Source: Terriglobia bacterium (GTDB lineage: Bacteria > Acidobacteriota > Terriglobia > Bryobacterales > Bryobacteraceae). From it: a DNA stretch of 41,140 nt. The position numbers were made by a program, and so were the translations under genes. The DNA lies in assembly GCA_025350105.1 (NCBI GenBank), contig JANXYJ010000165.1, forward strand, positions 1 through 41,140, in the 5' to 3' direction. The number at the start of each line of letters is the position of its first letter. Positions within the stretch are counted from its first letter, which is position 1. The notes under the pieces are model-generated. The model was not told the origin of the DNA and made no database searches. It worked only from the letters and a program-made list of their open reading frames with translations. Below are positions 4,199 through 35,896 of this stretch, piece after piece.

Positions 4199-6325
4199 CT
4201 AGCGGCCGGCCCCTGCTGGAAGATACTTGAGCACATCTTTCAGACGCGGCCGCTCGCGGGCGTCGGCGGTGGTGGGATGTTCCACCGGCGGCAGTTCCAT
4301 CTTGGGCAGTTCCATCTTTGGCTGTTCCCTGTTTGGCTGTTCCATCTCTGGCTGTTCGGTGGTCGGGCGTTCCCTGACCGGCTGCTGAACGGCGGGCCGT
4401 GAAATGTTTGGCTGGGGGCGCCCGTCAACAGAAATCGGGTCCGGTGAAATTAGGTCCGGTGAAACAACGGTTGCCGGTTCGGAATGGTTTCGCACGCTGC
4501 TGGACGGTGCAACCGGCTCCTTTGCCGAGTCCGTGCGCGATGACAAATCGGCGCGGGTTAGATTCAGGACGAAAGGGGTAACCTCAAAAGGCATTTTCTC
4601 GCGGGCGGAAAGCAGTGAGATCGGGCGCGATTTCACCAGTTCAATTTTGTTATTCCACGAATTGAGCTTGATGCGCGAACCGAGCGGGAGAGCCGCAATC
4701 TGCTCCAGTTTGCTTTGTTCGAGCGGCGGCGCCGCCGCAGCGAACTGTTGGAGGCGCGCCAACGCCTGATCGTCGGAAACCTGGTCCCCTAAATTAGGCC
4801 GCAGCAACATAGGGAGCAGCTGGCTATGGGCCGCCAGCTCTTTCAAAAAGAGTCCAGAATTGGACGTGTTTTGATACGGCGAGGCCTTCATGATCTCAAT
4901 GGTTTTAGTGCTGGCCGAAATCATTTCATCGGCGGGCCTGGCGAAACGAAAGCGCTGCAGCAGTTCGGCATCGCTCAACATGGTTTGGTTGTTGAAGGCG
5001 AACTGGGTTTGCGTACGGTGGCCCAAGGCAATGTGAGAAAGCTCCGCCGATAGCAGCAGGGCCAGGCTGGATTCGTCGGGCAGCACGTCGATCAATCCGC
5101 GGCTGATGACGATGGCGTGCCCGATGGCAAAGGTCTCCATGGGGGTGGTGAGCAGGACCCTGCAATGCGCCTCAATGTTGAGATGCCCCGCAATAATCAG
5201 GTTGTTGACCACGGTATCGAGCACGGCCTCCACCGGCCCTGGAGGAGCCAACAGTCCACCTTTTTCCAAACGGGCGAGCAGGTTTTCCTCCGCCTGTTTT
5301 TCCCAGTTGCGCTGGCTTTCGAGCGGCGAAGCGTCGGGAGTCATCTGTTCGGCGGTACCTTTGTCGCCTTCGATCAGGATGCTGGCCAGCTCTTCCATTT
5401 TGCTGGAAGGAGCCGCTTCATAATCCCAGATGCGCGATTGCGCTTTGAAGCGCGGCAATTCTTTGCGGCCATCGGCGGTAACCGTACCTTCCTCCTCAAC
5501 GTAAACCTGCGCGGGAACCCAAACCGCGCCACCGATGTTCATTCGCCAGCTATCGAAGTGAAAATACAATTCCGGATTTCCACCTTTAGGAATGGGCGCG
5601 GGAACATAAGTTCCGTTGAAATGAACGATGGCGTAGTCGCGGTCCTCCACCCAGATGCGGCCGATGAATTTTCCCGGCTGGTTGCGCATGACCGGCGCGA
5701 CGTCGAACACCAGGCAACGTACCTCGCCCAGAAATTCGCGGCGGACATATTCGAAGCGATACGTCTGGCGATTGAACTCCTGAAGATCGAGCGCGGTCAT
5801 CTGCGCAAAGCCACGCGCCAGGAAGGTGAGCGATGGGCCTTTCGGGGGCGCTGGACGGAATAGCCCGCGCCGGCCAGGCTTGGGCACCGCATCGGTGCGC
5901 TCCAACAGCGGCTCATAGTCCAGTCCGGAATCCAGGCGGAAGCGGCCCAGGAAGTAGTGGTCCTTCACCGGATGGGTTTCGCCTTCCTTGGTAGCGCTGG
6001 TTTCCTGAATGTAGGTTTCGATCAAAGGAGCGTGGGTACGGACTGTCTGCAGGAACAGAGCCTCACGCGCAACGATGCGGTCCAGCACCTGGGCAACGGC
6101 CTGATCGGCGCGCTCAGTCTTATCTACGGCCCGTTCAGCGGCAAGCGTGGCCCCCCCGGAGAGACCAAGGAGGATGAGCCCAAGGAAAATAAGCCCAGGC
6201 AAGATGAACTCAAGCAAAATGACCCCAGGCAAAACGAACCCAATCACGAGGGGGGCGAGGAAGCGGGGCGCGAGGCTGAAGATCACTTCTCTCATAGCGT
6301 TTTTTCTCCGGTGAATCTGATTCAT
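4199..6325 (-). CDS. Secreted/membrane protein with degenerate M48-type peptidase domain
   Basis: A 708-residue protein from the ATG at 6325, chosen because GGGGA lies 7 nt upstream; an in-frame TTG at 6364 and ATG at 6295 are alternatives. A very hydrophobic N-terminal segment (about residues 25-57) should target it to the envelope. A beta-rich region (about 110-305; RIWVEDRDYAIVHFNGTY, then YFHFDSWRMNI and WVPAQVYVEE) resembles the outer-membrane-lipoprotein-sorting-like fold often paired with peptidases in Acidobacteria. The M48-like region (about 365-490) has AFAIGH-like and LLLSAELSHIALGH, where the zinc motif HEXXH is replaced by AELSH, so the first zinc ligand is missing. The downstream Glu ligand region is also unconvincing. 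It is probably catalytically inactive or has another role. Both the hydrophobic segment and the C-terminal tail are built from 15-bp tandem repeats. It follows the TonB-like gene on the same strand. Confidence 0.72.
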   Translation of the reverse strand: MNQIHRRKNAMREVIFSLAPRFLAPLVIGFVLPGVILLEFILPGLIFLGLILLGLSGGATLAAERAVDKTERADQAVAQVLDRIVAREALFLQTVRTHAPLIETYIQETSATKEGETHPVKDHYFLGRFRLDSGLDYEPLLERTDAVPKPGRRGLFRPAPPKGPSLTFLARGFAQMTALDLQEFNRQTYRFEYVRREFLGEVRCLVFDVAPVMRNQPGKFIGRIWVEDRDYAIVHFNGTYVPAPIPKGGNPELYFHFDSWRMNIGGAVWVPAQVYVEEEGTVTADGRKELPRFKAQSRIWDYEAAPSSKMEELASILIEGDKGTAEQMTPDASPLESQRNWEKQAEENLLARLEKGGLLAPPGPVEAVLDTVVNNLIIAGHLNIEAHCRVLLTTPMETFAIGHAIVISRGLIDVLPDESSLALLLSAELSHIALGHRTQTQFAFNNQTMLSDAELLQRFRFARPADEMISASTKTIEIMKASPYQNTSNSGLFLKELAAHSQLLPMLLRPNLGDQVSDDQALARLQQFAAAAPPLEQSKLEQIAALPLGSRIKLNSWNNKIELVKSRPISLLSAREKMPFEVTPFVLNLTRADLSSRTDSAKEPVAPSSSVRNHSEPATVVSPDLISPDPISVDGRPQPNISRPAVQQPVRERPTTEQPEMEQPNREQPKMELPKMELPPVEHPTTADARERPRLKDVLKYLPAGAGR
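4275..4394. repeat. 15-bp tandem repeat, 8 units, C-terminal tail of M48-like gene
   Basis: Eight consecutive 15-bp units such as GGCAGTTCCATCTTG and GGCTGTTCCATCTCT. They encode pentapeptides of the form x-x-E-x-P (TTEQP, EMEQP, NREQP, KMELP, KMELP, PVEHP), giving a Pro/Glu-rich tail. Central units are best conserved and outer units are diverged. Confidence 0.92.
4431..4460. repeat. 15-bp tandem repeat, 2 units, M48-like gene
   Basis: GAAATCGGGTCCGGT is followed directly by GAAATTAGGTCCGGT, with a diverged third copy after. It encodes SPDLI/SPDPI in the same protein, just upstream of the 8-unit array. Confidence 0.8.
6159..6248. repeat. 15-bp tandem repeat, about 6 units, encoding the N-terminal membrane segment
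   Basis: Units such as ATGAGCCCAAGGAAA, ATAAGCCCAGGCAAG and ATGACCCCAGGCAAA run head to tail. On the coding strand they give hydrophobic pentapeptides (FVLPG, VILLE, FILPG, LIFLG, LILLG). The membrane-targeting segment of the M48-like protein is therefore itself a minisatellite. Confidence 0.9.
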
Positions 6326-6376
6326 GGCAAGGTCCCCAATTGATCGACAATTTTTTTCATTCAATCTTCCTTTTCC

Positions 6377-6396
6377 GTTCGGTTCGGTTCAGTTCG
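6377..6396. repeat. 5-bp tandem repeat, 4 units, between the TonB-like and M48-like genes
   Basis: GTTCG, GTTCG, GTTCA, GTTCG run in tandem in the gap between the two genes. The unit length is not a multiple of three, unlike the repeats inside genes. It lies upstream of the probable M48-like start and could affect spacing in the leader. Confidence 0.75.
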
Positions 6397-7934: not shown

Positions 7935-9548
7935 CTAGGAGGGATTGTGCTTTCGAAGGTTAGAGTGGTTAGCTGTAGCGCTGGGCCCGCCCGGAGCCGT
8001 AGCCATCGCTACCCCGTATAACACCAACGTTCCCTGTATGGGGAGGGAGCCTTTCGCCCGCCGCAGAACCAGTTGCAATCGGTAAAGAGACAGCTCCCCG
8101 TTTTTCGCCTTTATCGCGGGCGGCAGCAGAAGACTGGCAGCCCCCTCACAGACGTCTGGTGAGGCTGGGCCGGATATGGTTGGGGCGGATCCGGATACGG
8201 TTGGGGCGGATAAGGATGGGCTCAAGGGCGCGAGGTGGGAGTGAGGGAGTGGCCAACGGCCGACCGGGCTCTCCAACTCCCAGGCAAGGCGAAACGTACA
8301 AGGATCCTCTCGCTTAGCTGAGCTTGGTAGATCGACTGCCCTGCCCGGCTGCACCGGGTCCATGGATTGCATGGGGGATTGCATGGCAGCGGGTTGCGGG
8401 CCAGGGGTTTGCCGGGCCGGCTGCAACCTGAAATGCCATTCCAATTGGGCGCGGGCCGTGCCGATGGAATCAAAAATGACCAGCGGCTGTTCCAGCAAGA
8501 TGGCTTGGTCCGGCTGATCCCCGGTAAGCTGAAATTCTAATCTTCCCGGGGCCCACTTGGAGCGAATTCCCATAGGAGAATCTAAGCGCCAATCAAAGCC
8601 CTGAGCTGAGGGTTCTTTTTCAAACCGCCCGTTCACCAGCCTGACTGCGGATCTGGAGTCCGTCCCCAGGGTTTCGCTTGAACCAGGCAATCCATTCCAA
8701 ATTTTGATGGCGCCGGAAACCTGACCCGAGGAAATCAACCGTGTGGTCAGATGCGACAAACGGATGATGTCATCGGAGTCGAGACCCGCACCCGTGGAAT
8801 CCCTGGCAACTTTCGCGGCGCTGGCTTCCATCCACAGTCCAAGGGCCACGGCATCGCACCAACGCTGCTTATCGATCAAATAGTCGAGATAAGAATGTAC
8901 CAGGACCGGACGGTACCCTAAGCTTTGGATCAATCGGGTCAGGTCATCGTGACGAGGAGGGGACCAGCGATCCGCCAAGTCAAACCATGGCCGCAAATCC
9001 TCGGTTCTGGCAACGGAAAGTGCCCGCGTGGCGGACTTCCAAAACTGCGGGCCGTCCCGTTGACGAAAAGCGAAGTTCGCTCGGGCCCAGGAAGACAGAT
9101 ATTGCCGATCCACCGTTTCCGCCATGGCAAAAGCGGCCGCGGCGGTTTGGATTTGGCCGGCATGTTCATAAGCCAGGCCCAGATTAACCCAGGCCAGGCC
9201 GTCGCGGGGGTTAAAGCGCAAAGCCTTTTCTAATGAATGAATTTCGCTCTCGGATGCGGAATCGCTTGGGTTACGGCGGGCCAAGTTCGCCCGTTGGAGC
9301 CAAACGCGTTCGTCTCCCGCAGGTTCGTTTGGAGCCCCGGTGGTAAGGCTGAGGGACGACCCGGTCGCGTTTTCGATCTGCCATTCGTTCCAGACCAAAC
9401 GTCCGTTTTGAAACAGCACCAACAGAAAGAGGGAGACCAGGGCGAACCGGGTGGCCCAAGCCCCGGAGCTTAGCGTCCGATAACCGGGGAGGCCTAGTTT
9501 CCCGGGCCCCCAGCTGGTTTGACCGCCTCTACGATAAGTGCCTAGCAT
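7935..9548 (-). CDS. TPR-containing membrane-anchored protein, last genes of the polysaccharide locus
   Basis: A 537-residue protein with a single N-terminal membrane helix (FALVSLFLLVLFQNGRLVW, about residues 35-55), then TPR-like helices (WLQRANLARRNPSDSASESEIHSLEKALRFNPRDGLAWVNLGLAYEHAGQIQTAAAAF spans roughly 83-141). The second half (about 300-500) is beta-rich, with FDWRLDSPMGIRSKW and LEFQLTG followed by VIFDSIGTARAQLEWHFRLQP, resembling a carbohydrate-binding-like or jelly-roll segment. Similar proteins often follow O-antigen ligase genes in acidobacterial and related exopolysaccharide loci and may act in assembly; that role is inference. Two short in-frame tandem repeats lie in the C-terminal region. 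It follows the FecR-like gene by 21 bp. Confidence 0.62.
   Translation of the reverse strand: MLGTYRRGGQTSWGPGKLGLPGYRTLSSGAWATRFALVSLFLLVLFQNGRLVWNEWQIENATGSSLSLTTGAPNEPAGDERVWLQRANLARRNPSDSASESEIHSLEKALRFNPRDGLAWVNLGLAYEHAGQIQTAAAAFAMAETVDRQYLSSWARANFAFRQRDGPQFWKSATRALSVARTEDLRPWFDLADRWSPPRHDDLTRLIQSLGYRPVLVHSYLDYLIDKQRWCDAVALGLWMEASAAKVARDSTGAGLDSDDIIRLSHLTTRLISSGQVSGAIKIWNGLPGSSETLGTDSRSAVRLVNGRFEKEPSAQGFDWRLDSPMGIRSKWAPGRLEFQLTGDQPDQAILLEQPLVIFDSIGTARAQLEWHFRLQPARQTPGPQPAAMQSPMQSMDPVQPGRAVDLPSSAKREDPCTFRLAWELESPVGRWPLPHSHLAPLSPSLSAPTVSGSAPTISGPASPDVCEGAASLLLPPAIKAKNGELSLYRLQLVLRRAKGSLPIQGTLVLYGVAMATAPGGPSATANHSNLRKHNPS
8170..8211. repeat. 21-bp tandem repeat, 2 units, TPR gene
   Basis: Two 21-bp copies (8170-8190 and 8191-8211) differ at one position and share CCGGATA, GGTTGGGGCGGAT. 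They encode a Ser/Pro/Ala-rich linker (APTVSGSAPTISG). A third, diverged part-copy follows. Confidence 0.88.
8364..8387. repeat. 12-bp tandem repeat, 2 units, TPR gene
   Basis: GGATTGCATGGG followed by GGATTGCATGGC, encoding the repeated MQSP/MQS in the same protein. Confidence 0.8.
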
Positions 9549-9569: not shown

Positions 9570-10616
9570 TTAACGACTTACGGGGGTGGAACTACCGCCA
9601 ATCGCTCCACTGGCGGCGAGACCACCCACCACGGCAGCGGCGGCCACTCCCCCCACAATTGCAACCGTGGTCAGGCCAACGCCCAGTACGGTCGCACCTG
9701 CGGCGGTGCCGCCAGCAGCAGCGCCACCTGCGGCTGCTCCACCGGCTGCAGCTCCACCGGCCGCACCACCTCCGGCTGCAGTACCGCTGGCTGCACCACC
9801 GCCCGCGGCTCCGCTGGTTCCCGATGCGCTGCCCGCCGGCGCTGCGCCGACCTGGGCCAGTAAAGTGACGTTCGAGACACGCACCAGTTGCGAGGCGTCA
9901 CTCACCGGCGCGGCCGCCGGATCGAGTGCTCCGTTAATGGAAACCCGCTGGCCGGCCAACTTCTCCAAATTCTTGCCGACAGCTACATCCTTGCCCACCA
10001 CTTCCATGGTGACGTGGGTGGTCTCGTCGGTCATCACCATGTGGCCGCCGGCTTTCACACTCAGCCGCCCAGAAATACGCGTGAGGGTTGAGGTGGCCTG
10101 CGGTTCAAAGGCCATGGCTGTGCCAGGAATCAGTTTGGCTACCAAAAGGCCATTGGAATTCAAAATGCGAAAAGATCCCTTCAGAACCTCCACCTGAACC
10201 TTGTTGGCCCCCGCCAATCGAACCCGGCCCGTTGAATCACCGGTCTCAGGCTGAACGGTTAGCCCCCTCGCCTGCAAACGGACACCCACTGTCTTGGCCA
10301 TATCGCCCTGGCCGCGTTCGAGAACCAGATGGTCGCCGAAAATCTGCCCCCTCGAATCCGCCCCCAAGGTTAATCTTGCGCCGCTGGCCAGTTCCACCGA
10401 GGAAGGCGTTCCAGCCGTTTCTAAAGTCGAACCCTCAAACAGCGTGGCATTGCCGCGCACGGTCATATTATTCATCCGAAATGACCCGTTGGTCATCACG
10501 GTGCCAATCGCCGGACTGGCCGCAGGCAGGGGAACGCCCGTGAGCATCAGACTCACAATCATGGGCATCACCAAAGCTTGCTGCAGATTAGATATTTTCA
10601 TGCTGGGTACTTTCAT
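9570..10616 (-). CDS. Secreted FecR-like protein with Ala/Gly-rich repeat tail
   Basis: A 348-residue exported protein. A signal-type hydrophobic segment lies at about residues 12-33 (ALVMPMIVSLMLTGVPLPAA). The middle (about 35-235) is beta-rich with features of FecR-like domains (GTVMTNGSFRMNNMTV, then VELASGARLTLGADSRGQIFGDHLVLERGQG and VEVLKGSFRILN). The tail (about 258-305) is Ala/Gly-rich, from 15-bp repeats, and is followed by a membrane-spanning segment (VLGVGLTTVAIVGGVAAAAVVGGLAA). The start is well supported by AAGGAG 8 nt upstream. It overlaps the end of the ligase gene by 29 bp. Role is unknown; a cell-surface or periplasmic part in polysaccharide handling is inferred from position only. 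Confidence 0.7.
   Translation of the reverse strand: MKVPSMKISNLQQALVMPMIVSLMLTGVPLPAASPAIGTVMTNGSFRMNNMTVRGNATLFEGSTLETAGTPSSVELASGARLTLGADSRGQIFGDHLVLERGQGDMAKTVGVRLQARGLTVQPETGDSTGRVRLAGANKVQVEVLKGSFRILNSNGLLVAKLIPGTAMAFEPQATSTLTRISGRLSVKAGGHMVMTDETTHVTMEVVGKDVAVGKNLEKLAGQRVSINGALDPAAAPVSDASQLVRVSNVTLLAQVGAAPAGSASGTSGAAGGGAASGTAAGGGAAGGAAAGGAAAGGAAAGGTAAGATVLGVGLTTVAIVGGVAAAAVVGGLAASGAIGGSSTPVSR
9694..9813. repeat. 15-bp tandem repeat, 8 units, FecR-like gene
   Basis: Eight imperfect 15-bp units such as CCACCTGCGGCTGCT and CCACCGGCTGCAGCT, encoding A-A-A-G-G type pentapeptides. Part of the similarity comes from low-complexity coding, but the 15-bp register is kept. Confidence 0.75.
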
Positions 10617-12105: not shown

Positions 12106-14325
12106 TCAAGCGTTGGCCGCCCGGCGGAAGCGCGGCTCCAGCCGGTCCGGCCGGCCAGGCGAAGTAGCAGTTGACAAAACTCTGCGCAGAATCGGCGCGC
12201 TGGGGCTGTAATCGGGAATCATGTCTTTGAGCAGCATAATCGTGGTGGCCAAGTCCCGGGCTGCGACGCAGGCATGCAGCGCATTCAGGCGCTCTTTCAT
12301 TCCTGGAATGACGTTACGGCTGGCGGCGGGGCTGTGCGCGGCAACTTTGCCGAACCCCAACACGCCGCCCACCTGCCCGGCAGCCGCGGCGCTGGCAATG
12401 CGAGTACGATAAACCCGGATTTTGGGATGCGGCGTGGACTGGGTTTCTTCCTCCGAGGTGTGCAGTTCTTCAAACAACTTTTCGCCGGGCCGGATACCGG
12501 TGAAGGAAATCTCGATGTCCTGTCCAGGGCGCAGGCCACTCAATAGGATCATCTTCCGCGCCAGATCGACAATCTTGACGGGATCGCCCATATCGAGCAC
12601 AAAAATTTCCCCGCCCTGGCCGAGCGAAGCAGCATGCAGCACCAATTCCACTGCTTCAGGAATGGTCATAAAATAGCGGCGCATGTCCGGATGAGTGATG
12701 GTTACCGGGCCACCAGCGGCAATCTGGCGCTTAAATAGCGGAATCACGCTGCCGCTGGAACCCAAAACATTACCGAAGCGCACCGCTAAGAACCGGGTGG
12801 CGGCAGCGGAGTGATTTAGGTCATGACTGGCCACTTGTGGGTTCGCCAAGCCCGCGCTTTCTGGCAGGCAAAGCGTCTCTTGCAGGCAAAGCGTCTCTTG
12901 CAGGCAAACCATTTCGGCCAGACGCTTGGTGGCACCCATAACATTGGTGGGGGCCACGGCCTTGTCGGAGCTGATCAAAACGAACCTTTGCACGCCGCTG
13001 GCGCAGGCGGTCTTGGCGAGTTGCTCCGTTCCAAAGACATTATTCTCTAAGGCCTCAAACATTTGCGTTTCCATCAAAGGCACGTGTTTGTAGGCGGCGG
13101 CGTGATAAACGGTATCGGGCCGGTAAGCGGCGAAAATCTCCCGCAGTCGATGCGAGTTTTGAATGTTACCGATCTCCGGGTAGAAGTCCAGCTCTGGGAA
13201 CGATTGGCGGATTTCCTGATCGATCTGATAGAGCGCCGCCTCGGAGTGATCGAAACCGATCAATGCCCGCGGACGGGTGCGGGCAATCTGGCGGCACAGC
13301 TCGCTGCCAATGGAACCGCCGGCGCCGGTAACCAGCACCACTGGCGGCGGTTTGTCTTTACCACCAGCAGCGCCAGCACTGCCCGCGTGCTTGGAATCTT
13401 GGATTGGTCGCAAGCTGACCGGCGGCCGGCCCAACAAATCTTCAATGCGCACTTCGCGCACCTGATCGAGCAGGCCTTTCTTCTCGATCAATTCGGCCAG
13501 CGGGGGGATGCGCTTGGTGGCCGCCCGAGCCAAATGGCATTGTTCCAGAATGCCAGCGATTTCCGAGCCGCTGGCCCTGGGCAAGGCCAACCAGACTTCG
13601 TGGACACCCAGTTTCTTGACCGCCGCGGCCAGCGATTCGCGGCCCCCCACCACCCGCAGACCGCTAAGGCACAGGTGCCGCTTGGCGGGATCATCGTCGA
13701 CAAAACCCACAACCTCCACCGCCAGTTCGCGATGGGCCCGGATATCGGAAAACACGGCACGCCCGGCTTTGCCCGCCCCATAGATGAGAATGCGGCGCGA
13801 GAGCAGACGGTCAGTGAGTGAACTGCCGCCGGGGTCATCGCTATGGCCACCAGGACCTTTGCCGGCATCTCTTTTTACCTCAAACTTCTGGCCTTCAAAC
13901 CATAGCCGGACTGCCGCCCGCGCCAGCGCCATCAAAGCCAACGACAGCAGCCAATCGAGAACGTAGACCGAGCGGGGGAAAGCCCCCTGCCAGCGCCAAT
14001 AGCCGATGCACCCAACGCACAGGGATGCCGCAAAACAGGCTGCGGTCAGTCGCAACAGATCGTCGAAACTAAGATACTTCCAGGCCAGATCGCGCAGCGA
14101 AAAAAGGCGAAACACAATCAATTTGGCAGCCAACACAAATGGAACCAAGGCCCACAGCATGGTCCTGTATTCGAGGTCCGGGTGAAACTCGAAGCGCAGC
14201 CACACGGAGGCGATGAGAGCGGCGCCGGCCAGAAGCAAATGCGCCAACTCCGAGAGCTGGCGCCGATAAAGGGGCCAATGGAGGAAAAGCCGGCGCGAAC
14301 CGAGTAGAAGCAGAGGGAAAGACAT
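12106..14325 (-). CDS. NDP-sugar 4,6-dehydratase, membrane-bound (CapD/WbpM/PglF type)
   Basis: A 739-residue protein with four N-terminal membrane helices (about 1-140), a CoA-binding-like Rossmann domain (YGAGKAGRAVF at about 182) and a C-terminal extended SDR domain. The SDR domain has the NAD motif TGAGGSIGSELCRQI (about 333) and VYHAAAYKHVPLME, then ISSDKAVAPTNVMGATKR (about 451-468). MGATKR carries Met in place of the usual catalytic Tyr, as in WbpM/PglF-type retaining dehydratases, with the preceding SS of SSDKAV. The expected reaction is UDP-GlcNAc to UDP-2-acetamido-4-keto-2,6-dideoxyglucose, which the downstream aminotransferase could use. An unusual insert of about 35 residues, including an exact 18-bp duplication (CLQETL twice), sits right after the active-site helix. 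Confidence 0.88.
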   Translation of the reverse strand: MSFPLLLLGSRRLFLHWPLYRRQLSELAHLLLAGAALIASVWLRFEFHPDLEYRTMLWALVPFVLAAKLIVFRLFSLRDLAWKYLSFDDLLRLTAACFAASLCVGCIGYWRWQGAFPRSVYVLDWLLSLALMALARAAVRLWFEGQKFEVKRDAGKGPGGHSDDPGGSSLTDRLLSRRILIYGAGKAGRAVFSDIRAHRELAVEVVGFVDDDPAKRHLCLSGLRVVGGRESLAAAVKKLGVHEVWLALPRASGSEIAGILEQCHLARAATKRIPPLAELIEKKGLLDQVREVRIEDLLGRPPVSLRPIQDSKHAGSAGAAGGKDKPPPVVLVTGAGGSIGSELCRQIARTRPRALIGFDHSEAALYQIDQEIRQSFPELDFYPEIGNIQNSHRLREIFAAYRPDTVYHAAAYKHVPLMETQMFEALENNVFGTEQLAKTACASGVQRFVLISSDKAVAPTNVMGATKRLAEMVCLQETLCLQETLCLPESAGLANPQVASHDLNHSAAATRFLAVRFGNVLGSSGSVIPLFKRQIAAGGPVTITHPDMRRYFMTIPEAVELVLHAASLGQGGEIFVLDMGDPVKIVDLARKMILLSGLRPGQDIEISFTGIRPGEKLFEELHTSEEETQSTPHPKIRVYRTRIASAAAAGQVGGVLGFGKVAAHSPAASRNVIPGMKERLNALHACVAARDLATTIMLLKDMIPDYSPSAPILRRVLSTATSPGRPDRLEPRFRRAANA
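12865..12908. repeat. 18-bp tandem repeat, 2 exact units plus 8 bp, dehydratase gene
   Basis: CAGGCAAAGCGTCTCTTG is present twice without mismatch (12865-12882 and 12883-12900), followed by the first 8 bases of a third copy. It encodes CLQETL repeated in tandem. Perfect identity suggests a recent duplication. Confidence 0.95.
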
Positions 14326-22455: not shown

Positions 22456-23505
22456 CTAGAAGCAGGAACGGCGCATCGGGGGACAGGCTGTAAAGATGGC
22501 CCAGCGGGCTACTTTTCCCCAACTCAAAAGGCTACTCGGATGACCGCGTAGCAGGCGAAGATATTCGGCGAACGCGCCCCGGAAGTCGCCCGCCAGCAGA
22601 CGATGATCGGCCTGCTTGAGAGCGGCACGCAGGCATCTGTCCGTGGCCCCCATGCCTTCTGCGGCCCCGGTTATGTCCGCCGCCCCGGTTATGCTTCCCG
22701 CGCCGCTGCCGGCAGGCAGGACGGAGCCGGCTTGCGCGGCGGGCGATTGCAAAGAATGCCCAGCCAAACGCAACGCCTCCGGTACATCCTCCGGCTCCCG
22801 GTTGCGTCGCCGGTGAGCCAGAAACTGCGCCGCCCAATGCACTTGCGCTTGCTCCCTGGCACGGCTGCTGCTGACAGAACTGGCGGTAAAACAATAGTGA
22901 TAGAGCGGTGCCACCAGATTCACCACCGGACCACTTTCCGATAGCCGCCAGAAGAAATCGTAGTCCTGGGAGCAGGGAAAAGCCTCGCGGTAGCCTCCGA
23001 TCTGGCGGGCAACATCGGCACGAAACAGCACCGAGCCGTGCACCATCGGATTCCCTTCGTAGAAGGCATGCCGGACGCTCATGGCATCTTCCGGCAAACG
23101 GGTAGGCCATAGCGGCCGGCCGTCCTGGCGATGCATCCAGGCATTGGTCCCACAAGCTGTAATTTCTTCCCCCTGGCCTGGTTCGGTGGCCCGCCTCATC
23201 TGGCACTGCAGGCGATCCGGGTCACTCCAATCGTCGGCGTCCTGGCGCGCAATCCACTCGCCTCGCGCCAGCCCCAAACCGCGATTTAAAGTTCGTGTCA
23301 AACCGCGATGCGGTTCAAGTTCCAGGCGGATCCTCCGGTCCGCGGCCGCAAGGGTTGCTAATTCCTTTATCGTTGCCGAATCGGTACTCCCGTCGTCGAG
23401 AATGAGGAATTCGAAATCCGCCCAACTCTGCCGGAGGATCGACTCAATCGCCCGCCGGAGTTCATCTGGCCGGGCGTTATAGACGCTCATCAATACCGTA
23501 ATCAT
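22456..23505 (-). CDS. Glycosyltransferase family 2
   Basis: A 349-residue GT-A enzyme: ITVLMSVYNARPDELRRAIESILRQSWADFEFLILDDGSTD at the N-terminus, then NRGLGLARGEWIARQDADDWSDPDRL (DADD nucleotide-metal motif, about residue 90) and GGYREAFPCSQDYDFFWRLSE (ED-like catalytic region). The C-terminal third is variable and includes an 18-bp tandem repeat (SITGAADITGAAEG) and a final helical part (RLLAGDFRGAFAEYLRLLRGHP). The start region is part of a 17-bp triplication; the ATG at 23505 overlaps the stop codon of a 6-codon reading frame (MITVAA) made by the second copy. Confidence 0.85.
   Translation of the reverse strand: MITVLMSVYNARPDELRRAIESILRQSWADFEFLILDDGSTDSATIKELATLAAADRRIRLELEPHRGLTRTLNRGLGLARGEWIARQDADDWSDPDRLQCQMRRATEPGQGEEITACGTNAWMHRQDGRPLWPTRLPEDAMSVRHAFYEGNPMVHGSVLFRADVARQIGGYREAFPCSQDYDFFWRLSESGPVVNLVAPLYHYCFTASSVSSSRAREQAQVHWAAQFLAHRRRNREPEDVPEALRLAGHSLQSPAAQAGSVLPAGSGAGSITGAADITGAAEGMGATDRCLRAALKQADHRLLAGDFRGAFAEYLRLLRGHPSSLLSWGKVARWAIFTACPPMRRSCF
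22643..22696. repeat. 18-bp tandem repeat, about 3 units, glycosyltransferase gene
   Basis: Units at 22661-22678 and 22679-22696 share CCCCGGTTATG; a diverged unit precedes them at 22643-22660. They encode the ITGAAD/ITGAAE stretch in a non-catalytic part of the protein. Confidence 0.8.
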
Positions 23506-23544
23506 GCTGCCACCGTAATCATGTTCTTACCGTAATCCTGTTTT
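23494..23544. repeat. 17-bp tandem repeat, 3 units, covering a start codon
   Basis: TACCGTAATCATGCTGC, CACCGTAATCATGTTCT and TACCGTAATCCTGTTTT lie head to tail. On the minus strand each unit reads (ATG or AGG)ATTACGGT, so the glycosyltransferase start region has been copied twice upstream. The unit length is not a multiple of three and two of three copies are outside the gene. Confidence 0.93.
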
Positions 23545-26521: not shown

Positions 26522-28032
26522 CGCAGATTCCAGCTAAGAAGGCTGACCGCCCCCACCAATCCCAATCCGCCCAGCCAACTCAGCGCCGCGCGACGGTCCA
26601 AAATCATCCGGTAACGGAAACGCAAAGCCGCACCGCACAAAATCAGATGCACCGCGTACATCAAAACAAAAGCCACGCTGGCCGCCGTAGCTGCCCCCAA
26701 TGGCAGAGTGAGCAGCACGCTACCCAGCGCCAGGGTGGCGTAGGCGGCGAGATCAGCCGCGAAAAACATCTTCATATCCCCGGCCGCCAAAATAGGAATG
26801 GAGAGAATCCAACTGCCCACCTTCAGGTAGTCACCCAGCAGGGTCCAACGCAGAAACGCCGCCCCCGGACGGAATGCCTCGGCGTAGAGAATCTGCAGCA
26901 GCCACGGTTTGGTCAACGCCATTCCTGCAATCACTACCGCGGCGGTCAATGAGCCGGCCGCAAGTGTGTTTGAGACTTGCCGGGCTTTCTCTGGCGCTGC
27001 GGCGATGCGGGCCACCGCCGGCAGATAGGAGGTCTGCATCGAGGCCAACACCAGAGCGGCTTGATTCATACTGATATTCCAGGCCGCGTCCCACTGCCCT
27101 GTAACCGCCAGCCCCTGGGACGATGTGATACGACCGCGCACGAACAAAAGCACTGCCGACGACAGCAGCCCACTTATGGCAAGCGAAGCCGCAATCGAAG
27201 AAAAATGCAGCGCCGCGTGGTTGGACCAGATTCGCCCCGCACCACAAAACCATTCCTCCAGCGTCTGCCGGTAGCTTTGGAGTGCGAAAATCACCGCAAG
27301 CAAACTGGCCAGCGCCGAAAGGCCCATCATCAACAGAAGAGCTCCCGCGGGCCACGGGCCAGAACCTCCGTTCCGCATCCCGACAAGGAATAATGCCGTT
27401 GCCAGAGTTGCCAGTCCAGCAACGACTTGAACCAGAGCCAAACGCCCGACGCCACCCAGGGCCGTCAACAAGGCGCTCAGGAACACAAACCCGCTCGATA
27501 GCGTAACGGGAACGCTGAGACCGATGAGTGCGTGCGCGCTCAGTCCCGCGCCTTTGGGATCTTTGGGCCATATGCCGCTGCCTAGCAAACCGAGTCCGCT
27601 GCCCAGCAAACCGGCCACCACCAACAAAGTGAGTCCGGCGAACAAGCAGGCCAGGGTCCGCAGGTATTCGCGGCGCGGCGTGCCGCTCAGTGCACTTGCT
27701 CCTTGCACCAGCGCGGTCTGCCCATTGCCGGTTGCCACCAGCACAGCGATCTGCCGCGACTGTTGCAAGGTAGCCCATAAAGCGACCGATCCCGGGCCGG
27801 CAAAAACGGCCAATACTTTGGTCGCAAGCGCGCTCAGTGCACCACTGGCGAGCGAAGCTCCGCCAGCCTTGGTCATGATTGCCAGCATCCCGTTGCTTGC
27901 CAGAATTCTTCTCAGACAGGCCCACATTCCGGTCTCGTAGGACGGTGTCAGCCAAGGCAGATTGGTATGGATCAGCTGCGGCCGCACGGTCGTGTCTCCA
28001 TTCACCGTCGTTTTGTGCGCAGCGCCTGGCAT
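26518..28032 (-). CDS. wzx: Polysaccharide repeat-unit flippase (Wzx-like)
   Basis: A 504-residue protein with about 12 hydrophobic helices of the MATE/PST polysaccharide flippase type. The N-terminal part of the core reads MTKAGGASLASGALSALATKVLAVFAGPGSVALWATLQQSRQIAVLVATGNGQTALVQ, close to WzxE-like proteins, and the second half has QWDAAWNISMNQAALVLASMQTSYLPAVARIA. It would move the undecaprenyl-linked unit across the inner membrane. The 35-50 residues before the first helix are an unusual polar extension; internal Met codons are alternative starts, though GGGG lies 8 nt before the ATG at 28032. A 21-bp duplication encodes GLLGSGL/GLLGSGI within a membrane segment. Confidence 0.85.
   Translation of the reverse strand: MPGAAHKTTVNGDTTVRPQLIHTNLPWLTPSYETGMWACLRRILASNGMLAIMTKAGGASLASGALSALATKVLAVFAGPGSVALWATLQQSRQIAVLVATGNGQTALVQGASALSGTPRREYLRTLACLFAGLTLLVVAGLLGSGLGLLGSGIWPKDPKGAGLSAHALIGLSVPVTLSSGFVFLSALLTALGGVGRLALVQVVAGLATLATALFLVGMRNGGSGPWPAGALLLMMGLSALASLLAVIFALQSYRQTLEEWFCGAGRIWSNHAALHFSSIAASLAISGLLSSAVLLFVRGRITSSQGLAVTGQWDAAWNISMNQAALVLASMQTSYLPAVARIAAAPEKARQVSNTLAAGSLTAAVVIAGMALTKPWLLQILYAEAFRPGAAFLRWTLLGDYLKVGSWILSIPILAAGDMKMFFAADLAAYATLALGSVLLTLPLGAATAASVAFVLMYAVHLILCGAALRFRYRMILDRRAALSWLGGLGLVGAVSLLSWNLR
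27575..27616. repeat. 21-bp tandem repeat, 2 units, wzx
   Basis: Copies at 27575-27595 and 27596-27616 share CCGCTGCC(T/C)AGCAAACCG and encode GLLGSG twice in a predicted membrane helix or its turn. Confidence 0.88.
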
Positions 28033-28113: not shown

Positions 28114-29400
28114 TCATTCCCGTCCGGCCGTTGCAGTGTGCGTCGTCCATGCGGATGATCGCGGCGCCAGTTGCAGGCACGCTTGCCGCGTCACTGCAAT
28201 CACCTGGCTTACCTCTTCCTCGGTTAGGTGGGGATGCAATGGCAGACTAAGCTCGGTGTCCGCAAGGCGCTCGGCCAAGGGAAAATCGCCGCGAACAAAA
28301 CCAGTGTCCTGATAGGCTTCCGACAAATGCGGCGGTTGCGGATAGTGAATCAGAGTGCCCACACCTTCGGCTGCGAGCCTTTTCATCAGCCGCTCGCGCT
28401 GTGGGTGGTGCACGGCAAAAATATGCCAGACCATATTGGCAGATCTATGCGTATTGGAAGATCTATGCGTATTGAGAGATCCATCCGTTTGGTGATAAGT
28501 ACCCGTATTCTGCCGGTCGTCGGACGCCTGCGGCAGAACCAGATTCGGGACATCGACTAGTTCCCGCAAATAGCGGCGGGCAATCTCGTCCCGGCGGGCA
28601 TTCCAACGATCCAGATATTTAAGCTTGACGCGTAAGATTGCGGCCTGCAGCGAATCGAGCCGAGAGTTCACACCCCGAACTTCATTGAAATATTTTTCGC
28701 GCGAACCATAGTTGGCCAGTACCCGAACCCGATCGGCAATCTGTGCATCATTGGTCACCACCGCCCCAGCGTCGCCCAGCGCACCCAGGTTTTTGGTGGG
28801 ATAGAAACTGAATGCCGAAGCATCAGTTTGGAGTTCATGAGCGATCCCGTGCGCCTGCGCGGCATCCACCAGGAGACGCAAGCTTCGGCGCCGTGCAATT
28901 TCCCTCAGGGCCGGCATATTGGCGCAGCGCCCATAGAGATGCACGGCGAGAATCGCCCGGGTGCGCCGGGTCAACGCCGCTTCAACGCGGTTGGGGTCGA
29001 TGGTAAGCGTTTGCGCATCTGGCTCCACCGGCAACACCCGTGCCCCCACCGCCGAAACGGCTAGCCAAGTGGCGATGTAGGTGTTGGAGGGTACGATCAC
29101 GTCATCCCCCGCACCGATGCCGCACGCCCGCAGCATCAACACCAGAGCGTCATATCCGTTGCCGGTACCCACCGCTTCGCCGGCTCCACAGTAATCGGCA
29201 AACTCGCGTTCAAAACAGTTGACTTCACTGCCTCCGATATAACGTCCGCTGTCGAGGACTTTCGCCACACCGCGATCAATTTCCTCGCGGACGCCGGTTA
29301 CTGCCAGCCCCAGATCCTGGAAGGGAACAACGCCAGGAACACAGGAGCGAACTACGGCCGGCATAGCTTCTCGAATCATTTGCGTTCTGTCTTGGTTCAT
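28114..29400 (-). CDS. DegT/DnrJ family aminotransferase, FdtB/QdtB-like (3-keto sugar amination)
   Basis: A 428-residue PLP enzyme. Motifs: VPFQDLGLAVTGVREEIDRGVAKVLDSGRYIGGSEVNCFEREFADYCG, GNGYDALVLMLRACGIGAGDDVIVPSNTYIATWLAVSAVGA, LLVDAAQAHG (pyridine-binding Asp) and FSFYPTKNLGALGDAGAV with the PLP Lys in PTKNLG at about residue 213. The N-terminal pattern is that of dTDP-3-amino-3,6-dideoxyhexose aminotransferases (FdtB/QdtB), and the adjacent gene encodes the matching ketoisomerase and acyltransferase. Near residue 315-335, before VWHIFAVHHPQRERLM, an insert from an 18-bp repeat (SLNTHR/SSNTHR) interrupts a normally short loop. Confidence 0.86.
   Translation of the reverse strand: MNQDRTQMIREAMPAVVRSCVPGVVPFQDLGLAVTGVREEIDRGVAKVLDSGRYIGGSEVNCFEREFADYCGAGEAVGTGNGYDALVLMLRACGIGAGDDVIVPSNTYIATWLAVSAVGARVLPVEPDAQTLTIDPNRVEAALTRRTRAILAVHLYGRCANMPALREIARRRSLRLLVDAAQAHGIAHELQTDASAFSFYPTKNLGALGDAGAVVTNDAQIADRVRVLANYGSREKYFNEVRGVNSRLDSLQAAILRVKLKYLDRWNARRDEIARRYLRELVDVPNLVLPQASDDRQNTGTYHQTDGSLNTHRSSNTHRSANMVWHIFAVHHPQRERLMKRLAAEGVGTLIHYPQPPHLSEAYQDTGFVRGDFPLAERLADTELSLPLHPHLTEEEVSQVIAVTRQACLQLAPRSSAWTTHTATAGRE
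28438..28509. repeat. 18-bp tandem repeat, 4 units with decay gradient, aminotransferase gene
   Basis: Units at 28438, 28456, 28474 and 28492. The first two share AGATCTATGCGTATTG exactly, the third keeps AGATC, and the fourth only CGTATT. They encode the SNTHRS-type insert. The gradient suggests new copies at one edge. Confidence 0.9.
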
Positions 29401-29439: not shown

Positions 29440-30591
29440 TTAAGCAGACTTCGCTGCCAGCGCTGCCGCCGGTCCATCCGCTGGATTTGAGACGGACACG
29501 TACAGGTTTGGAGGGGAGGAAACCGCCGCCAGGTAATCATCCAGGTCCCGGATATAATCTTTTTCACGATAAACATCGGAGGCCAGAACCATCAGTACGG
29601 CGTCGGCGGAATATTTGTACTGTGTGGTCCACACCATCGCCGGAACAAATAGCCCCATTTCCGGGCGATTCAAAACAACTTCTTCTCCACGTTCCCCATC
29701 AAATAGACGCACTGCGCAGCTGCCATGCACGCACACCAGGAACTGCTGGAGCGTCCGATGCGCATGTTCGCCGCGGACTTTTCGATTTGGCACGCCAAAA
29801 ACCAGGAAGTAACGCGCCGGGAGAAAGGGTAAGGCCTGCTCGACTTCCGCAAAGGACAATTGTCCGCGGGGATCACTGATCTTCGGCAGCGTCACCAGCC
29901 GGGATCCGCCCACCATAACCCTAGTTCCAGCCGATCCGGTAGGCCGGAGTGGCTGATGGGGGCCGTTGCCGTCGTCAGCCGGGGCAAAATGCTGTTGAGC
30001 CAAATCGTTCTTGGGCAAATCGCTCTTCGGTAAATCGCTTTTCGCCAGATGGTTTCGAGGCAAATCGGCTTGAGCCAAGTCGCGGCCATCCACATAACCG
30101 CGAACCGCTGCCGGGTTGCCTACCACAATGGCGCGAGGCGGCACATCGCAAGTTACCACCGCTCCGGCGCCTACCATCGCGCCGGCACCGATCGTGATGC
30201 CCGGAAGAATGGTCGCGTTGGCTCCGATCGAAGCGCCCTTGCGAACCAGGGTTTTCGAAAACTCCCGCGGCCGCCGGCGGCTGCGGGGGAAAGGATCGTT
30301 GGTAAAGGTCACATTGGGGCCGACGAAGACGTCATCTTCAATTGTCACTCCGTCCCATACTTGAACCCCGCACTTCAGCGTCACCCGATCACCAATGCGA
30401 GCGCCGCCTTCGACGAAAGTGTGGTCGCATAAATTGCAATCGGCTCCGACCTTGGCGCCGGGCAGAAGATGGACGAAAGCCCAAACCCGCGTGCGCGGGC
30501 CAATTTCGTCCGTTTCGACCAGGCTTTGCGGGTGCCTAAAAAACCGCTCAGGCGCGTGCGTAACCGTAGTCTGCATCGTTCCATTCGCCAT
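29440..30591 (-). CDS. Bifunctional sugar N-acyltransferase / dTDP-4-keto-6-deoxyhexose 3,4-ketoisomerase (WxcM-like)
   Basis: A 383-residue fusion. Residues about 12-165 form a left-handed beta-helix acyltransferase (hexapeptide repeats; CDHTFVEGGARIGDRVTLKCGVQVWDGVTIEDDVFVGPNVTFTNDPFPRS), as in FdtC/QdtC. Residues about 225-360 form a cupin-like ketoisomerase (ISDPRGQLSFAEV, YFLVFGVPNRKVRGEHAHRTLQQFLVCV, His at 276 and 278), as in FdtA/QdtA. The same fusion is known in Xanthomonas WxcM. With the adjacent aminotransferase it gives the isomerase, transaminase and acylation steps for a dTDP-3-acylamino-3,6-dideoxyhexose. The linker (about 171-203) is a pentapeptide-like array from a 15-bp repeat. 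Start: AGGGA 8 nt upstream. It overlaps the epimerase gene by 44 bp. Confidence 0.9.
   Translation of the reverse strand: MANGTMQTTVTHAPERFFRHPQSLVETDEIGPRTRVWAFVHLLPGAKVGADCNLCDHTFVEGGARIGDRVTLKCGVQVWDGVTIEDDVFVGPNVTFTNDPFPRSRRRPREFSKTLVRKGASIGANATILPGITIGAGAMVGAGAVVTCDVPPRAIVVGNPAAVRGYVDGRDLAQADLPRNHLAKSDLPKSDLPKNDLAQQHFAPADDGNGPHQPLRPTGSAGTRVMVGGSRLVTLPKISDPRGQLSFAEVEQALPFLPARYFLVFGVPNRKVRGEHAHRTLQQFLVCVHGSCAVRLFDGERGEEVVLNRPEMGLFVPAMVWTTQYKYSADAVLMVLASDVYREKDYIRDLDDYLAAVSSPPNLYVSVSNPADGPAAALAAKSA
29983..30087. repeat. 15-bp tandem repeat, 7 units, inter-domain linker of the WxcM-like gene
   Basis: Seven units (e.g. AGCCAAATCGTTCTT, GGGCAAATCGCTCTT, CGGTAAATCGCTTTT, AGGCAAATCGGCTTG). They encode ADLPR, NHLAK, SDLPK, SDLPK, NDLAQ, which match the A(D/N)Lxx form of pentapeptide repeats. 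The array joins the two enzyme domains. Confidence 0.95.
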
Positions 30592-31726
30592 CGGCTTGTC
30601 CCTCTCTTTGTCGTGCTTCCTGTCGTAATTCGTGTGCCAATCCTTGTTGATCTCCGTGTTGATCTCCGTGTTGATCTCCGTTTTCCTCTAACCGCCCGTT
30701 TTCAGGTCCGTAGAAATCGCGATACCAGTGCGCGAAATCTTCGATTCCCGTTTCGAGCGTCGTCGCTGGCCGGAAATCTGTCGCCAGCCAAAAGTCTTCC
30801 ACGTCGGCGTGCGTCACAGGCACGTCACCAGGCTGCATCGGAAGGTAGCGCTTGATGGCCGGACGGCCCAGGGCCTTTTCGAGCGTTGTGATAAAACTGA
30901 GCAGGGGCACCGGCGAACTGTTGCCAACGTTAAACAGACGATACGGCTGCGGCTGCCGCCCGCGCGCCGCGATGCGCACAACGCCCTCGGCGATATCATC
31001 CACATAAGTGAAATCGCGCTGCATGTTTCCATAGTTGTAAACATCGATGGATTCACCGCGCAAAATCGCGGCGGCGAAACGCATAGGAGCCATATCAGGC
31101 CGGCCCCAAGGCCCGTAAACCGTAAAGAACCGGAGACCGGTGGTGGCCATCCCGAACAGACTGGAATAGGAGTGCGCCATGAGTTCGTTGGCCCGCTTGG
31201 TGGCGGCATAGAGCGAGACCGGTGAATCAACCCGATCGGCGACTGCAAACGGGACCTTCAGGTTGCCTCCGTAAACCGAGGACGAAGACGCATAGATCAA
31301 ATGGTCCACGCCGTTGCGCCTTGCTCCCTCCAGAACGGAGACAAAACCCATTAGGTTCGCCTCGGCGCAAGCATAGGGGTTTTCCACTGAGTAACGGACG
31401 CCGGCCTGGGCCGCTAGGTGGATCATGGTAGAGAATTTCTCCCGCTCAAACAGCGCCTCCATCGAAGGCCGGTCTCCGATGTTCATCTCCACAAAGCGGA
31501 ATCCCGGATGGGGCGCAAGACGAGCCAACCTGGCCTGCTTCAAGCGGGGGTCGTAATAGGAATTCAGATTGTCAAGCCCGACAACACTGTGCCCTTGTGC
31601 CAGCAAACGCTGAGCAACGTGATACCCGATGAAGCCGGCGGCACCGGTCACCAAAACCGGCTCCTTAATGAGAACAGGCCCAACTGGCCGAGTGATAAGC
31701 ATTGATCCACTGCTAGGGTTGTCCAC
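30548..31726 (-). CDS. NAD-dependent UDP-glucuronate 4-epimerase-like protein
   Basis: About 392 residues from a GTG at 31726 (GAAGG 7-8 nt upstream); a TTG at 31747 and an ATG at 31702 are alternatives. Extended SDR fold: LVTGAAGFIGYHVAQRLLAQGHSVVGLDNLNSYYDPRLKQARL (the YYDP motif marks the UDP-glucuronate 4-epimerase/LpsL group), MIHLAAQAGVRYSVENP, SSSSVYGG, SLYAATKRANELMAHSY (catalytic Tyr and Lys), LRFFTVYGPWGRPDMAP. It would convert UDP-GlcA to UDP-GalA, a possible target of the AsnB-type amidotransferase. After the domain end (YRDFYG) an extra tail of about 50 residues starts with a 12-bp repeat (GDQH) and then overlaps the next gene by 44 bp, which suggests loss of an original stop codon. 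Confidence 0.86.
   Translation of the reverse strand: MDNPSSGSMLITRPVGPVLIKEPVLVTGAAGFIGYHVAQRLLAQGHSVVGLDNLNSYYDPRLKQARLARLAPHPGFRFVEMNIGDRPSMEALFEREKFSTMIHLAAQAGVRYSVENPYACAEANLMGFVSVLEGARRNGVDHLIYASSSSVYGGNLKVPFAVADRVDSPVSLYAATKRANELMAHSYSSLFGMATTGLRFFTVYGPWGRPDMAPMRFAAAILRGESIDVYNYGNMQRDFTYVDDIAEGVVRIAARGRQPQPYRLFNVGNSSPVPLLSFITTLEKALGRPAIKRYLPMQPGDVPVTHADVEDFWLATDFRPATTLETGIEDFAHWYRDFYGPENGRLEENGDQHGDQHGDQQGLAHELRQEARQREGQADGEWNDADYGYARA
30646..30681. repeat. 12-bp tandem repeat, 3 exact units, epimerase C-terminal extension
   Basis: GTTGATCTCCGT occurs three times without mismatch, encoding GDQH/GDQH/GDQQ. Weaker 12-bp periodicity (TGTCGTGCTTCC, TGTCGTAATTCG) precedes it. Confidence 0.95.

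Positions 31727-35896: not shown

Follow-up and report, generated by a model that had tools for sequence, protein, structure and literature searches.

Frame-keeping tandem repeats in a polysaccharide locus of a Terriglobia bacterium probably stem from a genome-wide process of short duplication

Introduction

Among small insertions, short tandem duplications form a major class. In bacteria, minisatellites or VNTR loci form head-to-tail arrays that are in frame if coding and lie in loops or tails, and phase-variable simple-sequence contingency loci have short units that switch the frame. A polysaccharide locus of a Terriglobia bacterium, studied here as a stretch of 41,140 nt (the window), harbours tandem repeats in many of its genes. 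The initial annotation offered two readings of them: the lineage as a whole may tend to duplicate, with selection for frame as the filter, or a diversity mechanism may tune linker lengths in surface-polymer enzymes. The question is thus whether the repeats belong to the locus or to the genome.

Results

Arrays in the window

The TRF census of the window (strong arrays having a score of at least 50 and a period of at least 10, after clustering) yielded 12 strong arrays, 11 of which lie wholly in genes (Table 1). Arrays had been announced in at least fourteen genes. Ten genes harbour strong ones, i.e. those coding for the M48-like (two arrays), TPR and FecR-like proteins, the 4,6-dehydratase, the GT2 at 18522, AsnB, DegT, the WxcM-like protein, the epimerase and a subtilase not named previously. 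The repeats of the sugar transferase, wzx and second GT2 genes are weak, E1-alpha has just an 8-bp two-copy match (score 32) and wzc yielded no TRF hit down to a score of 30. Of the three arrays claimed for the M48-like gene, the third was not resolved as a separate strong one. A Pfam search with the FecR-like protein gave no match.

Table 1. Tandem repeats in the window (positions of the whole stretch)
Feature	Gene	Position	Strand	TRF score	Remarks
15/30-bp array, C-terminal tail	M48-like (4199-6364)	4290..4373	-	87	Period divisible by three
15/30-bp array, close to N-terminus	M48-like	6161..6243	-	93	
21-bp array	TPR (7935-9548)	8170..8217	-	77	
15/30/42-bp array	FecR-like (9570-10616)	9695..9817	-	101	Gly/Ala-rich
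18-bp array	4,6-dehydratase (12106-14325)	12860..12908	-	91	Exact run
Weak repeat	Sugar transferase	14383-14413		41	
21-bp array, 4.5 copies	GT2 (18522-19772)	19186..19280	-	134	Residues 165-196
Decayed 18-bp duplication	Second GT2 (22456-23505)	22658..22693	-		2 mismatches
17-bp array across gene start	Second GT2	23494..23542	-	63	Classed as edge
15-bp array	AsnB (23576-25486)	24810..24846	-	53	
Weak 21-bp duplication	wzx (26518-28032)	27572..27613	-		3 mismatches; no TRF row
18-bp array	DegT (28114-29400)	28434..28492	-	76	
15-bp array	WxcM-like (29440-30591)	30001..30044	-	60	
12-bp array, C-terminal tail	Epimerase (30548-31747)	30631..30681	-	75	
18/36-bp array	Subtilase (40066-41139)	40103..40294	-	117	VIWGT-type peptide repeat; Peptidase_S8

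The periods of all 11 wholly genic strong arrays (12, 15, 18, 21, 30, 36 and 42) are divisible by three. The claim that this applies to every coding unit holds for the strong arrays but not for coding two-copy matches whose units measure 7, 8, 11 and 14 bp (scores 30-38). Units are unrelated from gene to gene, as judged by eye. Two repeats had been placed outside coding sequence. The 5-bp one (6373-6396) is indeed intergenic, but it is weak (score 34). The 17-bp array instead spans the start of the second GT2 gene; it contains ATGATTACGGT in two copies and a diverged form in a third, one copy lacks an ATG, and the ATG of the gene is at 23505.

Like minisatellites, the window has head-to-tail copies, of units longer than about 9 bp, in numbers above chance. 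In five rounds of dinucleotide shuffling, the window and three other stretches together produced just three arrays in 505,700 bp (0.06 per 10 kb), and the window arrays are thus far above chance. The frame switching of phase-variable contingency loci was not found, as all 11 strong coding arrays are in-frame.

Arrays as insertions

We aligned 17 genes with orthologs from four relatives, or from one or two of them in some cases. All six strong arrays so examined lie in, overlap or directly adjoin insertions private to this genome. The 4,6-dehydratase array (residues 473-489) overlaps a private insertion at residues 486-494, and those of AsnB and DegT also overlap private insertions (residues 298-319 for DegT). 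With a single ortholog compared in each case, the epimerase array is inside an insertion (residues 348-375) and the WxcM-like array adjoins insertions. The array of the GT2 at 18522 has no counterpart in the aligned orthologs; its residues have pLDDT values below 50 and are unstructured in the predicted model. The decayed duplication of the second GT2 sits within a private insertion (residues 255-287). Insertions of at least four residues number 39 private to this genome versus 14 found only in relatives, a contrast overstated by the small number of relatives. No counterparts of the strong arrays examined are present in the syntenic loci of the relatives. Those arrays are therefore insertions in loops and tails.

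Abundance in the genome and in relatives

At one TRF setting throughout, the window has 2.92 arrays per 10 kb. The same genome, whose assembly comprises 206 contigs, has 117 arrays in 616,134 bp (1.90 per 10 kb) over 40 other contigs, a systematic rather than random sample (contigs chosen by number, each taken whole or for its first 20 kb) that includes two stretches (5,261 bp) made entirely of N, left out of the duplication counts below. In 18 genomes of the same genus, which are distantly related (in the seven compared, full-length PolA is 67-71% identical), we found 25 arrays in 615,328 bp (0.41 per 10 kb). Arrays are present in 80 of 866 sampled genes of this genome, as called by a simple script rather than a trained gene finder, and in the sampled stretches their TRF density is highest in non-coding DNA. 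The arrays are thus real, but they are not peculiar to the polysaccharide locus, to which the initial annotation had implicitly confined them.

At copy identities of at least 80%, there are 173 duplications in 0.99 Mb of this genome versus 18, about one-tenth as many, in 0.96 Mb of genus mates (53 of 54 stretches used in the duplication, unit-length and microsatellite counts). In non-coding DNA, the figures are 50 and 1. Three Actinoplanes loci have 2.27 arrays per 10 kb and so equal this genome by TRF density, but their 61,758 bp include just one perfect duplication with a unit of 12-18 bp; at least one such duplication is present in 36 of 58 stretches of this genome.

Unit lengths

Perfect single duplications concentrate at units of 12-18 bp. 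With overlaps removed, 66 of this size are present in 992,505 bp of this genome versus three in 958,325 bp of relatives (74 versus four when overlapping runs are counted). Non-coding duplications with units of 8, 9, 10 and 11 bp number 1, 0, 1 and 1, against 1.8, 0.5, 0 and 0 in shuffles. The lower size limit is not perfectly sharp, since coding 10-bp duplications exceed those of shuffles (6 versus 0.8). Microsatellites of 1-9 bp show no excess over genus mates, i.e. the short-unit signature of slippage instability was not found.

Frame filter and gene classes

Determining unit lengths modulo three, as the initial annotation had suggested, gave a clear result: 86 of 100 coding but 18 of 50 non-coding units are multiples of three (at least 80% identity; Fisher P 9e-10). 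Together with the scarcity of duplications in genus mates, this strongly supports its proposal of a lineage-wide tendency combined with selection for frame.

Expected numbers of coding events were derived from the non-coding supply. In the sampled stretches, out-of-frame coding events are at 0.04 of expectation and in-frame events at 0.49. Among stretches named after a flagged gene that they flank, the labels applying to whole stretches, the in-frame ratio is 0.43 for glycosyltransferases and 0.18 for housekeeping/repair genes, a difference that is not significant (P 0.11). The glycosyltransferase set is made up of ten stretches (187,271 bp) that surround such genes outside the window; its non-coding density is below that found elsewhere (4 in 13,211 bp, plus 8 edge events). 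The proposed absence of arrays from housekeeping genes is borne out in the window for the fumarase, DUF507, DUF2203 and PolyA_pol/HD genes. Elsewhere, housekeeping/repair stretches have five in-frame events in 140,907 coding bp, about one-third of the genome-average coding density.

In the window itself, 40 kb of coding DNA contain 12 in-frame events, two of which belong to one array. This is about threefold the density of both sampled and glycosyltransferase stretches (Fisher P 0.002 each), in a stretch chosen for its repeats. Relative to the neutral prediction of 8.0 events, the ratio is 1.51, which is not significant (P 0.11). Uniform tolerance would not predict this threefold density. Copies within coding arrays differ 137 times at codon position 3, versus 80 times at position 1 and 78 times at position 2. 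This third-position excess indicates mild purifying, not diversifying, selection.

Duplication ends and repair genes

Matches between duplication ends were analysed for clean single duplications. For units of at least 13 bp, there is no end match in 10 of 18 (56%), similar to the 54.6% of simulated blunt duplications, and the match is at most 2 bp in 13 of 18. It reaches at least 3 bp in five of 18, versus 6.2% in simulations, and in eight of 26 when units of at least 12 bp are included, a set that omits 12-bp units without end match. Hidden third copies or microhomology may lie behind this minority. The junctions of 37 events revealed no clear motif, and hairpins in repeat units show no excess over random genomic segments.

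The genome encodes Ku next to a complete LigD, which comprises phosphoesterase, ligase and primase-polymerase domains. Of the 18 genus mates, 15 have Ku as well, all of low array density; it was not found in G002, G003 and G012, of low density too. As array density within the genus does not follow the presence of Ku, the burst of duplications is not explained by it.

In 16 of 19 genomes, full-length MutS passes the cut-off, the exceptions being this genome, G002 (65% complete) and G010. In two genus mates, G003 and G011, anmK and leuC are beside mutS. These two genes were not found in this assembly either, one of the searches having no positive control; thus, the absence of MutS may be an assembly gap. 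MutL (full length), PolA and RecJ are present. We did not adopt mismatch-repair loss as the cause, given that possible gap in the mutS block, the full-length MutL, the unraised microsatellites and the low density of G010 (0.29 arrays per 10 kb), as well as loss of PolA or RecJ, as both are present. In the PolA columns of the seven relatives of usable length, 24 changes are private to this genome versus 11-18 for six relatives.

Discussion

The repeats of the window very probably result from a genome-wide, lineage-specific, size-limited and frame-filtered duplication process. A mutational process specific to the lineage would generate tandem duplications of ~12-18 bp anywhere in the genome. Within genes, selection would remove those that are out of frame, and in-frame duplications would persist in proteins able to tolerate an additional loop or tail. 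Since survival requires such tolerance, arrays would be sparse in housekeeping genes and could accumulate in tolerant polysaccharide genes. Some duplications would expand to three or more copies and then decay by substitution. As the molecular step, breaks with 12-18-nt staggered ends might be filled in and joined by Ku and LigD; the sizes and ends of the duplications and the microsatellite counts make this a tentative, though reasonable, proposal. Taken as a whole, the combination of a ~12-18-bp tandem duplication process, a frame filter and end joining is the likely explanation.

Could the locus rather have its own diversity mechanism, in which copy number tunes how long the loops and linkers of surface-polymer enzymes are? 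The threefold excess of the window over sampled stretches is the point in its favour. However, the enrichment does not extend to polysaccharide genes generally, as the in-frame coding density of the other glycosyltransferase stretches is at the genome average (0.86 versus 0.98 per 10 kb). Nor is the total of the window significantly higher than neutrality predicts; four relatives have 3, 0, 0 and 1 arrays in their syntenic stretches, and copy differences show no diversifying selection, all of which makes such a mechanism very unlikely. An artefact of assembly or sequencing is extremely improbable. A draft in so many contigs might mis-resolve tandem repeats, but such errors would ignore the reading frame, and the copies have frequently diverged. 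It is also improbable, if slightly less so, that the duplications are footprints of mobile elements, i.e. target-site duplications remaining after precise excision. They are limited in size and mostly blunt-ended, like such footprints; yet unit lengths are not fixed but span 12-18 bp and beyond, no junction motif is clear, and arrays contain three to five copies of one unit.

The most serious alternative, which we consider possible but rather unlikely, is classical replication slippage between pre-existing short direct repeats 12-18 bp apart, with weakened control of slippage. It would account naturally for arrays growing to several copies, and both the minority of duplications with end matches of at least 3 bp and the missing full-length MutS agree with it. 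In contrast, most end matches are of 0-2 bp, units have a lower limit near 12 bp, and repeats of 1-9 bp, on which a slippage mutator should act most, are not raised. Against the MutS argument stand G010, which lacks full-length MutS too but has a low array density, the possible assembly gap and the presence of MutL, PolA and RecJ. Joining of staggered breaks thus fits better than polymerase slippage, because of the lower size limit, the lack of end microhomology in most clean single duplications and the absence of a microsatellite excess.

Short tandem duplications arising by fill-in of staggered breaks and non-homologous end joining are established for mammals and plants (PMC5730883, PMC8355091). 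In both settings, short tandem duplications have little end homology, and this genome has genes for Ku and for a joining ligase that contains a primase-polymerase domain. In contrast, the eukaryotic cases are experimental, and ours is a bacterium with a 12-18-bp size window. In a survey of prokaryotic satellites with at least four copies (PMC6749651), bacterial repeat lengths are mostly multiples of three, with some outlier species. Multiples of three predominate among coding units here as well; however, the 12-, 14- and 16-nt units of Burkholderia reported there come from 6-8-nt microsatellites, which are not raised in this genome.

The arrays resemble bacterial minisatellites in being head-to-tail, frame-keeping and located in loops and tails, but they differ in being widespread among sampled genes and densest in non-coding DNA; their units are unrelated, and recent single duplications are numerous. 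With phase-variable contingency loci they share their location in surface-polysaccharide genes, but the strong coding arrays stay in frame. No earlier report of such repeats in Acidobacteria was recognised in the open-licence literature; one Acidobacteria genome paper used TRF (PMC3174227).

The contrast between coding and non-coding DNA provides a direct estimate of tolerance for in-frame insertions: about half are retained in sampled stretches and less than one-fifth in housekeeping/repair stretches, with no visible purging in the polysaccharide locus. More speculatively, and with less confidence than we have in end joining as such, the process might be active and homology-independent: an enzyme could nick both strands 12-18 bp apart or leave such a stagger, LigD and Ku would fill and join the ends, and in-frame duplications of 4-6 residues would arise proteome-wide. 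If true, homology-independent duplication would be a steady supply of raw material for loops and linkers. The repeats in polysaccharide genes seem to be a conspicuous portion of what an unusual mutational habit produces across the genome, not a device special to these genes. With many recent, size-limited duplications that are missing in genus mates, and with no microsatellite mutator signature, this bacterium would be a natural system for studying how proteins gain loops, where the 12-18-bp length originates and whether bacterial end joining can make such duplications.

Tandem arrays in the polysaccharide locus

The window contains 12 tandem arrays (TRF, score ≥50, period ≥10). Eleven are wholly intragenic, with periods divisible by three in all 11 cases; the remaining one has a 17-bp unit and extends across the start of a GT2 gene. 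When the window and three other stretches were dinucleotide-shuffled, arrays almost disappeared (3 in 505,700 bp); thus, the core observation of the initial annotation, tandem arrays in the genes of this locus, is real. Its gene list does not hold for wzc, in which TRF reported nothing down to a score of 30. The proposed E1-alpha array comes down to an 8-bp match (TRF score 32), that of the sugar transferase gene is present but weak (score 41), and the duplications in wzx and the second GT2 gene exist but are decayed.

The second GT2 gene has had its start (ATGATTACGGT) copied by the 17-bp duplication, giving an extra upstream ATG 17 bp away in a different frame; a diverged third copy has no ATG. 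This duplication may affect initiation. The C-terminus of the subtilase harbours a peptide repeat of the SVIWGT/QVIWGT type, which could represent an older protein repeat instead of a random duplication.

Features discussed in the text (G000, source genome of the window)
Feature	Location	Coordinates	Strand
GT2 gene with 21-bp array	window	18522-19772	
Second GT2 gene	window	22456-23505	
17-bp duplication at second GT2 start	window	23494-23542	-
Subtilase C-terminal repeat	window	40103-40294	
Array-dense stretch (L023)	contig C11	1-20000	
Stretch with large repeats (L031)	contig C91	264-2111	
Ku gene	contig C187, locus L207	8007-8927	-
LigD gene	contig C187, locus L207	9320-11836	+

Genome-wide distribution and size specificity

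We sampled 40 other contigs of G000 (first 20 kb or whole; 616,134 bp, two stretches totalling 5,261 bp being all N). TRF detected 117 arrays: 66 coding (period divisible by three in 59), 32 non-coding (13) and 19 at gene edges. Array density is nearly fivefold higher in non-coding than in coding DNA (5.49 vs 1.18 per 10 kb). The 18 same-genus genomes yielded 25 arrays in 615,328 bp, and with further sequence the totals are 0.29, 0.53 and 0.55 per 10 kb for G010, G002 and G001, respectively. In three genomes from another family of the same order, each sampled for 40 kb, there are 0, 5 and 1 arrays; one of them, G029, comes fairly close to G000 in density (1.25 per 10 kb). Three Actinoplanes loci (L083, L084 and L092) show a G000-like density, with 14 TRF arrays in 61,758 bp (2.27 per 10 kb), and therefore array density alone is not unique to G000. 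The unit lengths of these arrays are scattered, with one perfect 12-18-bp duplication.

Within G000, stretch L023 is denser than the window: its 20 kb include nine arrays with units of 12-16 bp, four of which fall in the first 1.5 kb. L031 harbours large repeats of 147, 158 and 57 bp close to the contig start, which are of a different kind from the short duplications.

Perfect duplications were defined as match runs at distance p, of length ≥p and <2p. With overlaps removed, those with 12-18-bp units number 66 in G000 (992,505 bp) and 3 in its 18 genus mates (958,325 bp); the counts are 74 vs 4 without overlap removal, and zero in shuffles. They occur in 36 of 58 G000 stretches and comprise 39 coding (33 in frame), 18 non-coding and 9 edge cases. 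When up to 20% mismatches are allowed, the totals over all unit lengths are 173 vs 18, with units most often of 15 bp and some longer than 30 bp; because substitutions reach longer duplications sooner, the upper size bound is less secure than the lower. Non-coding duplications of 5-9 bp are at about shuffle level in G000, with one each at 10 and 11 bp. Coding DNA has an excess at 6 and 9 bp in G000 and its relatives alike, and a further one at 10 bp (6 vs 0.8 in shuffles) that the relatives do not share. Microsatellites of 1-9 bp show no rise over genus mates, with 24 vs 19 homopolymers of at least 8 and 9 vs 51 dinucleotide runs. Thus, the process is size-specific rather than a general repeat instability.

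Frame selection and tolerance

The initial annotation offered two readings, a lineage-wide duplication tendency filtered by frame selection or a diversity mechanism tuning the linkers of surface-polymer enzymes. The former is better supported, both by the excess of duplications over genus mates and by the frame: at ≥80% identity, periods are multiples of three in 86/100 coding vs 18/50 non-coding events. We estimated supply by pooling non-coding events outside the window (50 in 83,796 bp) and taking one third as in frame. The sampled stretches kept 54 in-frame events (109.9 expected) and 9 out-of-frame events (219.8 expected). The corresponding values are 15 (34.6) and 4 (69.2) around other glycosyltransferase genes, and 5 (28.0) and 1 (56.1) around housekeeping and repair genes, the difference between these two groups not being significant (P 0.11). 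Such arrays are not peculiar to polysaccharide genes. The window has 12 in-frame events vs 8.0 expected and no out-of-frame events vs 15.9, and thus in-frame events are not purged there; the in-frame excess over neutrality is not significant (P 0.11), and two of the 12 events belong to one array. Its in-frame density is higher than in either the sampled or the glycosyltransferase stretches (P 0.002 for both comparisons), but caution is needed here since the window was picked for its repeats. In 80 in-frame ungapped coding arrays, copies differ 80, 78 and 137 times at codon positions 1, 2 and 3, with 90 synonymous and 146 non-synonymous codon changes. The copies thus appear to be under mild purifying selection, not diversification.

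The locus is largely syntenic in the relatives G003 (L047), G011 (L050, overlapped by L082) and G008 (L111), and partly in G012 (L051). Among the 17 window genes covered by ortholog alignments, all six strong arrays (dehydratase, GT2, AsnB, DegT, WxcM-like and epimerase, the last two compared with one ortholog only) lie in, overlap or directly adjoin G000-only stretches. The GT2 array site is empty in the other eight aligned proteins, from several phyla. In the AlphaFold2 model of this protein (mean pLDDT 80.1), residues 165-196, exactly the array, have pLDDT values below 50 between confidently folded parts. As initially proposed, the arrays are in loops and tails, where they are tolerated insertions.

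Possible origin of the duplications

Clean single duplications, i.e. two perfect copies with dissimilar flanks, were examined for exact matches beyond the unit. Among 18 with units of at least 13 bp, the match is 0 bp in 10, 2 bp in 3, 3 bp in 1 and 6-9 bp in 4; for comparison, 54.6% of simulated blunt duplications have no match and 6.2% have ≥3 bp. With 12-bp units added, the match is at most 2 bp in 18 of 26 and ≥3 bp in the other 8; in this set the threshold hides 12-bp-unit events without end match. Most clean cases are consistent with blunt duplication independent of homology; in a minority, end matches exceed chance, from microhomology or third-copy remnants. No clear junction motif was found among 37 events, and no hairpin excess among 71.

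The low end match of most clean duplications, the minimum size and the lack of a microsatellite rise favour staggered breaks that are filled in and joined, rather than slippage. Staggered breaks, once filled in and joined, would generate short tandem duplications. In mouse cells, tandem duplications at such breaks require Ku80 and Lig4, and a pair of nicks on opposing strands is proposed as the trigger (PMC5730883); PMC8355091 reports primase-dependent fill-in, and according to PMC3898472 NHEJ polymerases of prokaryotes are able to extend annealed breaks. G000 encodes Ku and LigD in adjacent, divergent genes; LigD has all three domains (phosphoesterase, ligase and primase-polymerase). Ku is also present in 15 of 18 genus mates, and therefore the lineage-specific factor lies beyond Ku, candidates being a source of staggered ends or the loss of an accurate repair pathway.

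Full-length MutS scored above cut-off in 16 of 19 genomes, the exceptions being G000, G002 and G010. MutS loss was not adopted as the cause: G010 is array-poor, G000 has a full-length MutL, and the mutS neighbours anmK and leuC, which form with it a block conserved in G003 and G011, were likewise not found in the G000 assembly. The missing MutS thus reflects either a gap in the assembly or a larger deletion, which, if real, would remove mutS along with part of leucine synthesis. In PolA of G000 (L135), 24 changes fall at columns that do not vary in seven relatives, about half of them at residues 414-519; the same test on six relatives gave 11-18.

Minisatellites in general are well known. In searches of open-licence papers, we found no description of such a combination of density, size window and apparent homology independence in a bacterium. 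The arrays represent a burst of tandem duplications of 12-18 bp that spans the genome, is specific to this lineage and is subject to frame selection.
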